Positions 4,499 to 6,295 of a stretch of DNA of 64,000 nt are shown piece after piece. The notes under the pieces were generated by a model. It did not search any database and was not told the DNA's origin. It saw nothing but the letters and a program-made list of their open reading frames with translations. The position numbers and the translations under genes were made by a program. Every line of letters starts with the position of its first letter. Within the stretch, counting starts at the first letter, position 1. Origin of the DNA: Pirellulales bacterium (GTDB lineage: Bacteria; Planctomycetota; Planctomycetia; Pirellulales; Lacipirellulaceae); assembly GCA_019636345.1 (NCBI GenBank), contig JAHBXQ010000005.1, positions 186,001 to 250,000 on the forward strand, given 5' to 3'.

Positions 4499-6295
4499 CT
4501 ACCCTCGCACCCACTCAGTTCCCCCGGCGCGATCTTCGAGGGCGACCCCGATCGCTTTGAGGCGATCGCGGACCGCGTCGCTGGTGGCGAAATCCTTGCT
4601 TGCGCGGGCCGTCGCGCGGAGCTGAATGAGCAGTTGCATGACGCCGTCCAAGGCTCCCTCTCCGCCGCCGGTCCATTCGGCGCCTGTCGGGCGGTCCTCG
4701 ATGACGATTGCCAGCGGCTTCAGCCCGTCGCGGATCGCGTCGGCGGTCGCGAAATTCTTCGCGGCCCGGGCTTCGGCCCGGAGGCCGATCACCACCCCCA
4801 TCGCGGCGGCGAGCAGGTCGGCGTCGGCGCCTCCCCCGGCTGACGCCGGGGGCTCGAGGAAGAGGCCGAGCGTGTTCGCGAGTTCCTTCAGCGTGACCAG
4901 CAGCGATTCAAACGTGGCGACGCCCTGCGGATTGCTCGCGGCGTCGGTTTCCAGTTTGTGATCATCGCAATATTTGTTGACGATCTTTGCCAGTTCAAAA
5001 AGCTCGGCGATCGCGCCGCCCGTGTTGAAGTCGTCGTCCATCGCCGCGATGAACTTCTCCCGGCAGGCGGCCGCGGCGTCGAGCGCCGGATCGCCGGACG
5101 GTTGCGGCTTAGCGGCGTCTCGACCGTTGGGCGCGGTCAGCTCGTAGAAGTCGCGCCCCGTGACGCGGTTGTAACGCTTGAACAACCGATAGAACGACTC
5201 GAGCCCGACGCCGGCCTCCTCGATCGCCGGTTCGCTGAACAGCACCGTGCTGCGGTAGTGGGTGCGCAGGAGGAAGAAGCGGATTCGCTCGCCCCCTTGT
5301 TTGGCGATGAGTTGGGCGAGGCCGCCGGCGCCTTTGCTGCGGCTCATTTTGCCGCTGACGGCGTCTTCTCCGGGAGCTGACGCTTCCCGGCTCGTTGCGA
5401 GCGCTGAAGCGCCCTCGCCGGCGCGTTCGGCCTTGCCGCCGATCTTGCCGGCGGTTGCGTCGCGGCGCAACAGGCCGTTATGGGCCCAGTACAGGGCGAA
5501 CGCTCGCTCGTGGCAGCACTCGCTTTGGGCGATTTCGTTTTCATGGTGCGGAAACACCAGGTCGAGCCCGCCGCCGTGAATGTCGAACGTTTCGCCGAGC
5601 AGCTTCTTGCTCATCGCCGAGCATTCGATGTGCCATCCGGGACGACCCGGCCCCCAGGGACTGTCCCACGACGGCTCGCCCGGCTTGGCGCCCTTCCACA
5701 GGGCGAAGTCGGCCGCGTTTTGCTTGCGCCCCGCCGCCCCGCCGCCGTCTCCCTGCATTCCCTCGACCGTACGGTTTGAGAGCTTGCCGTACGCGCGGTC
5801 CTTCATCACGTTGAAAAACACGTCGCCGTCGGCCGCATAGGCGAACCCCCGGTCGACGAGCGACTGGGTCAGGGCAATGATCTCGTCCATGCACTCGGTC
5901 GCGCGGGGGAAGTGGTCGATTTGGTCGACCCCTAGCGCCGCAAGATTGTCGTGATAGTCCTTGATGTTCTCCTCGGCGACGTCGAACATCGTGATGCCGC
6001 GCTCGGCGGCCTTGTTGATCAGCTTGTCGTCGACGTCGGTGATGTTGACGACCCAGGTCACCTCGTAGCCCGAGTAGGTCAGGTACCGCTTGATGCAGTC
6101 GAAGATCACCGGCCCGACCATGTGACCGATGTGGGCTTTGTCGTACACCGTGGGCCCGCACAGGTAGATCCCGACCCGACCCGGCCGAACCGTGCGGAAC
6201 GGCTCTTTCTTCTTCGAAAGCGTGTTGTAGATCGTCAGCGACGAGTGCGGATCGGAGAGTTGCATGGAATCGATCTTTTCGGCGGTCGCGGGCAT
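4499..6295 (-). CDS. cysS: Cysteinyl-tRNA synthetase with inserted segment and duplicated C-terminal module
   Basis: Class I synthetase that charges tRNA-Cys. Visible: LCGPTVYDKAHIGH (HIGH motif), zinc-site region with SPWGPGRPGWHIECSAMS, and HHENEIAQSE. The product is 598 residues, against roughly 460-500 usual. Two things explain the excess. About 35 extra residues (KAERAGEGASALATSREASA) sit just before KMSRSKG, a variant of KMSKS. The C-terminal helical module appears twice in a row: LRAEARAAKNFATADAIRDG...EDRPTGAEW and LRATARASKDFATSDAVRDR...EDRAGGTEW. Both oddities coincide with palindromic repeats in the DNA (5370-5390 and 4833-4852). The frame is uninterrupted, so the gene should be functional. 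Start at 6295; the Met at 6265 is also possible. Confidence 0.95.
   Translation of the reverse strand: MPATAEKIDSMQLSDPHSSLTIYNTLSKKKEPFRTVRPGRVGIYLCGPTVYDKAHIGHMVGPVIFDCIKRYLTYSGYEVTWVVNITDVDDKLINKAAERGITMFDVAEENIKDYHDNLAALGVDQIDHFPRATECMDEIIALTQSLVDRGFAYAADGDVFFNVMKDRAYGKLSNRTVEGMQGDGGGAAGRKQNAADFALWKGAKPGEPSWDSPWGPGRPGWHIECSAMSKKLLGETFDIHGGGLDLVFPHHENEIAQSECCHERAFALYWAHNGLLRRDATAGKIGGKAERAGEGASALATSREASAPGEDAVSGKMSRSKGAGGLAQLIAKQGGERIRFFLLRTHYRSTVLFSEPAIEEAGVGLESFYRLFKRYNRVTGRDFYELTAPNGRDAAKPQPSGDPALDAAAACREKFIAAMDDDFNTGGAIAELFELAKIVNKYCDDHKLETDAASNPQGVATFESLLVTLKELANTLGLFLEPPASAGGGADADLLAAAMGVVIGLRAEARAAKNFATADAIRDGLKPLAIVIEDRPTGAEWTGGGEGALDGVMQLLIQLRATARASKDFATSDAVRDRLKAIGVALEDRAGGTEWVRG
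4833..4852. repeat. Palindromic repeat inside cysS, C-terminal part
   Basis: CCCCCGGCTGACGCCGGGGG is a perfect hairpin with 8-base arms and a TGAC loop. It is read through in frame in cysS as part of EPPASAGGGADAD, just before the duplicated C-terminal modules. The central octamer GCTGACGC is shared with the second palindrome in the same gene. Confidence 0.75.
5370..5390. repeat. Palindromic repeat inside cysS, before the KMSKS motif
   Basis: A 21-base imperfect palindrome with arms CCGGGA and TCCCGG and the core GCTGACGC. It encodes part of SREASAPGED within the extra segment that separates the catalytic domain from KMSRS. Its core matches the palindrome at 4833-4852, so both are probably copies of one repeat family. 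Confidence 0.7.

Follow-up and report, generated by a model that had tools for sequence, protein, structure and literature searches.

Our analyses indicate that the palindrome lying at positions 5370-5390 of the window (the whole stretch of DNA analysed here, 64,000 nucleotides long) is, with high likelihood, a REP of a class-3 type REPtron that was inserted in antisense orientation in a disordered loop of the cysteinyl-tRNA synthetase gene cysS and was tolerated there. According to this scenario, the mobile unit of a planctomycete class-3 type REPtron, a short palindrome that a single-strand HUH/Y1 transposase mobilizes, would have entered a loop, long and disordered beforehand, that immediately precedes the KMSKS motif, and would be read there as nine added residues, TSREASAPG. 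In several class I aminoacyl-tRNA synthetases of this family, unrelated short repeats would have inserted into such loops on many occasions.

The host gene, cysS (4499-6295, minus strand), encodes a class I cysteinyl-tRNA synthetase (CysRS) of 598 residues, identified by TIGR00435 (cutoff 340 bits, score 452 bits) and by the Pfam domains tRNA-synt_1e (345 bits), DALR_2 and CysS_C. The gene is intact, and the single match of a genome search for cysS makes it the only copy found. Both class I motifs are present in addition to the model score, namely HIGH at residue 55 and KMSRS, corresponding to KMSKS, at residues 316-320 (5336-5350, minus strand), the latter being conserved in the CysRS alignment. 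The best structural match of the CysRS model is 1u0b, the E. coli CysRS-tRNA complex, and the enzyme carrying the insert is presumably active. In other planctomycete CysRSs (L266, L267, L268, L265, L270) the KMSKS motif is degenerate, reading KLAGSKG, KIAGSKG, KISRSKG or KISKSKG, and these proteins carry the same kind of loop alongside it. The C-terminus (4499-4850) contains two similar units (LRAEARAAKNFATADAIRD... and LRATARASKDFATSDAVRD...), which are also found in the other aligned family members and look like a duplicated anticodon-binding-like unit.

The palindrome that the original prediction had placed inside cysS forms a genuine stem-loop (5370-5390, plus strand), composed of an 8 bp stem, a TGAC loop and a single bulged base in the 3' arm, with a DNA fold of -7.4 kcal/mol. 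It is part of a consensus unit, CTCCGGGAGCTGACGCTTCCCGGCTCG (5368-5394, plus strand), of which identical copies are found elsewhere in the same genome (G000), as well as in G007 and G019. The 21-mer palindrome occurs at 15 places of the 5.18 Mb genome when at most two mismatches are allowed, and the extended consensus CTCCGSGRGCTKACGCNTCSCGGCTC at 36 places with at most three, the reversed control giving 0 in both searches. The palindrome is therefore repeated elsewhere, contrary to the possibility, foreseen in the original prediction, that it might be confined to cysS. The copies are read in three different frames and are also found in intergenic regions, and several of them form inverted (head-to-head) pairs with a spacing of about 42-57 nt. 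When 60 distinct copies taken from three genomes are aligned, 95.4% of stem cells are paired, compared to 85.0% in shuffles, and 45 stem cells are doubly changed, compared to 11.2 in shuffles, which corresponds to compensatory changes, while sliding the stem partners by one column leaves about 50% paired; since the search pattern that yielded the copies constrained certain stem positions and not the rest, these counts are not free of selection. All the REP-bearing genomes among the 59 searched belong to one family, with 35 copies in G000, 75 in G007, 51 in G019, 15 in G005, seven in G006, four in G003 and one in each of five others; the REP is absent from G001, a congener of G000 whose genome is 72% complete, and from the genomes of other families.

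In cysS, the unit ACGAGCCGGGAAGCGTCAGCTCCCGGA (5369-5395, minus strand; 27 nt, or nine codons) encodes residues 301-309, TSREASAPG, six residues before KMSRS, and the REP itself is antisense relative to the gene. The comparison was made with a congener, G001, which has 83% protein identity, a 72% complete genome and no such REP. The cysS loop of G000 exceeds the G001 loop by 24 nt, and after the removal of 27 nt it becomes one codon shorter and aligns cleanly, other placements of a 24-nt gap in the same alignment fitting about as well. Several start points score equally, and the boundaries of the 27-nt insertion are therefore approximate, uncertain by several bases. An alignment with the gap split in two pieces was set aside, as the 27-nt deletion aligns more cleanly. 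Because this removal restores the alignment with the congener but for one codon, comparison of the two sequences indicates that the REP probably added nine in-frame residues to the cysS loop. A step of exactly 27 nt separates the ileS loop of G007, which contains the REP, from that of its congener G019, which lacks it. With 27 nt being a multiple of three and the unit having a stop codon in only one of its six frames, nine extra residues are read. Close by, a short palindrome, GCGCTGAAGCGC (5401-5412, plus strand), covers the ASA codons and is not clearly part of the REP. Palindromes with a GCTTCAGC core occupy the cysS loop in some relatives; the idea that they constitute one common REP family was only partly upheld, as the core is enriched in G030 and in G012/G020 and not in G000 or most other genomes.

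The segment in which the REP lies has a longer history. The loop between HNGLL (residues 272-276) and KMSRS (5351-5467, minus strand) spans 39 residues, and most non-planctomycete CysRSs have seven residues from HNG to KMSKS. The extension is found in 30 of the 30 aligned family members, at a variable length of 21-59 residues, and a related one is found in the CysRSs of other planctomycetes, showing that the loop segment predates the REP. The alignment of relatives thus revealed a conserved loop, one of the two outcomes that the original prediction had named as speaking against it, and its attribution of the whole segment of about 35 residues to the palindrome must be abandoned in favor of an older, lineage-wide loop to which the repeat supplied about nine residues. 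Its broader proposal, that a repeat had entered an essential gene next to the catalytic loop and had been tolerated, survives as regards a dispersed repeat, read in frame in an intact gene, and fails as regards the origin of the segment. The structural modelling that it had suggested was performed with AlphaFold2 (55 sequences) and gave a CysRS model with a mean pLDDT of 87.8, in which residues 282-314, including those encoded by the REP, fall below 50. According to this model, the loop is probably disordered and outside the folded core, even though it adjoins the KMSKS loop, and this location would explain why the insertion was tolerated.

A candidate for the enzyme that mobilizes the REP is found in the same genome. 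At least five REP copies at C3:456922-457901 surround, on both sides, an ORF of 182 amino acids (L005, 1531-2076; G000:C3:457079-457624), whose product matches the Pfam family Y1_Tnp (E-value 1.3e-4) just below the curated cutoff and scores 25.7 with the NCBIfam model of REP-associated transposases (cutoff 80), the IS200 model also being below its cutoff. The protein contains the motifs THFH (HUH), WTAGG and YVLEKQ. Some of its relatives within the family adjoin 8-bp palindromes in which the loop has 4 nt, for example TNAC. Class 3 Y1 proteins have been described mainly in Planctomycetes and Acidobacteria, with about 178 amino acids and a Y----Q motif, and their genes are flanked by atypical, sometimes abundant hairpins with a CnGA foot (PMC6006769). 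The planctomycete system analysed here resembles these class 3 TnpA(Y1) REPtrons in the length of the protein (182 amino acids, 178 in the published class), in the Y----Q motif (YVLEKQ), in the W[TA] motif (WTAGG, compared with the table of PMC6006769), and in the several genome-dispersed hairpins that flank the gene in a planctomycete host. A CnGA-type motif (CCGA) located 5' of the hairpin may correspond to the published foot; in most copies a single base separates it from the stem, and the cysS copy reads ACGA. A HUH motif is present, in the form THFH, which differs from the published consensus NHVH. The 182-amino-acid protein is a good fit to the class 3 Y1 transposases except for its histidine motif and the CCGA offset, and we infer that this putative class-3 type transposase moved the REP.

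The cysS copy is not the only one inside a synthetase gene. In G000, the REP is also in frame in valS, where a second REP-like unit adjoins it, in ileS and in the gene of a PSCyt1/DUF1549/DUF1553 protein. Among the 160 copies of three genomes, a rule requiring a coding signature on both flanks, the same for all copies, retained five clear host genes, valS, ileS, cysS and the DUF1549 protein gene in G000 and ileS in G007 (an extra G000 row is the DUF1549 site read on its other strand), four of which are class I synthetases. Leaving cysS out, the chance of three of four hosts being synthetases is about 4e-6 under our estimate that synthetases represent about 1% of coding DNA, a value to be interpreted cautiously as the rule is crude and the test post hoc. 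In the three synthetases of G000 the REP is read in three frames, yielding LRELTLPGS, EPGGVSSRS and, in cysS, TSREASAPG. Another type-A REP (G000:C7:221389-221414) either coincides with the start of an ORF that has aspartyl-type tRNA synthetase domains (L131, 1482-3026) or lies immediately ahead of it.

Other repeats occupy the same loops among the relatives. The IleRS loop (GYRGE...QFPADF; L172-L181) is short in many of them and long in others, where it contains in-frame repeats: the REP (type A) in G000 and G007, with a degenerate copy in G012; type-B palindromes, CCCTCCCC-n-GGGGAGGG, in G011, G016, G012, G002 and G013; and short tandem-like repeats in G019, G020 and G015. GGGACGA-like and AATGACG-like tandem units, in frame, are among the sequences filling this loop in relatives. 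In the ValRS loop, G001 has a type-B palindrome and G015 a different palindrome. In G020, a perfect palindrome of 28 nt, GGCCGCTTCAGCGGCCGCTGAAGCGGCC, read as GEAASAAAEAASP, is found twice in LeuRS (L342, 1559-4420) and once in CysRS (L343, 600-2546). The type-B palindromes are themselves dispersed, and the 60 that we examined gave 14 intragenic candidate rows, four of them in ileS and the others in unrelated ORFs. We therefore abandoned the view that synthetases are the sole targets: they are over-represented among the hosts and not exclusive, and the count is biased because the search patterns came in part from synthetase loops. Judging by eye, type-B palindromes also lie in frame in ORFs resembling an aminotransferase and a DNA methylase (L410, L395, L413; G007, G019).

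Several other readings of these data must be considered. The palindrome could result from the codon usage of a GC-rich loop abundant in A, S, G, P and E rather than being a mobile element. The genome has a GC content of 66%, and this reading does fit the second palindrome of the gene, CCCCCGGCTGACGCCGGGGG (4833-4852, plus strand), which folds well and encodes PPASAGG. Its 8-mer core, GCTGACGC, had been taken as a recurrence of the same repeat; the window contains eight occurrences of it, where 7.5 would be expected, and at this site the relatives have the same protein length, often with PPxxAGG. This chance-level count and the constant length lend no support to the proposed recurrence and rule out 4833-4852 as another REP copy or an insertion, and the sequence comparison there is most simply explained by ordinary coding sequence. 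For 5368-5394, in contrast, many dispersed copies match the 27-mer exactly, in three frames and in intergenic regions, with a reversed control of 0, so that codon usage is already refuted for this unit and is, as a general explanation, highly improbable.

A second reading would have the insertion retained for a function, either as a useful loop peptide or as an mRNA or DNA hairpin that tunes expression or slows the translation of the synthetase. It would account for the concentration of intragenic copies in synthetase genes (the four of five clear hosts in three genomes) and for the recurrence of different repeats in the same loops. Nevertheless, the REP is read in three frames in three synthetases, the repeats of the relatives are unrelated in sequence, and the loop varies freely in both length and content, many family members having no repeat there; we consider a retained function to be very unlikely. 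Similarly, synthetase genes might be preferred targets of the enzyme that moves the repeats, through sequence, replication strand or transcription, instead of being simply tolerant, as suggested by their over-representation among the genes with intragenic type-A REPs and by the other palindrome of G020, with its two copies in LeuRS and one in CysRS. However, type-B palindromes are also inside various other genes, survivorship in disordered loops accounts for the same data, and the counts are low, with search patterns selected in part on synthetase loops, making such a preference unlikely. That the loops of IleRS, ValRS, CysRS and LeuRS are genuine hot spots, in which in-frame insertions from unrelated families of palindromes and tandem repeats would recur at the same sites more often than in other genes, by target preference or through an effect on the enzymes, is a tentative idea that we regard as doubtful. 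The insertion of a REP in a tolerant loop remains our preferred explanation: the different frames in three synthetases, together with the unrelated repeats of the relatives, point to tolerance rather than to a selected peptide and suggest that the synthetase loops are recurrent, tolerated landing sites for short repeats, among which the cysS loop would be neutral.

Palindromic repeats read in frame have been reported in other bacteria. The RPEs of Rickettsia are inserted in frame in solvent-exposed parts of ORF products, including the phenylalanyl-tRNA synthetase beta subunit; a given site may be occupied by different elements, and hot spots have already been discussed (PMC3767692). However, the RPEs are described as having 100-150 bp and are known from Rickettsia and Wolbachia, whereas the element described here has 27 nt, a planctomycete host and a linked transposase gene, and therefore does not belong to them. 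The GTAG and CGTC REPs are palindromes of 20-40 bp, mostly intergenic, and some are in frame in genes that include tRNA synthetases of three species (PMC3733652). No unpaired GTAG or CGTC end was found in our 60 aligned copies, in which the letters CGTC fall in the stem and loop, and the CGTC REPs are not linked to a transposase gene, unlike the planctomycete REP. The REPs and REPINs associated with RAYTs in Enterobacteria and Pseudomonas are also dispersed, imperfect, bulged palindromes with inverted pairs and a HUH transposase nearby; they differ by their GTAG foot, absent here, and by their enzyme, since the planctomycete transposase is closer to class 3 and below the cutoff of the NCBIfam RAYT model. 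In the open-access literature, most subscription papers being outside the search, we found no description of identical synthetase loops being filled recurrently. In-frame REPs are already known; what was less expected in these results is that the same loops of the synthetases are used repeatedly.

The in-frame insertion of repeats is known mainly from Rickettsia and from scattered cases of REPs. Here, three essential synthetase genes of one genome contain a 27-nt element to which a candidate transposase is linked, and the filled and empty sites among its relatives provide a natural series of how short mobile DNA becomes protein, in which it may be asked whether the loops of these synthetases are neutral sinks or targets.
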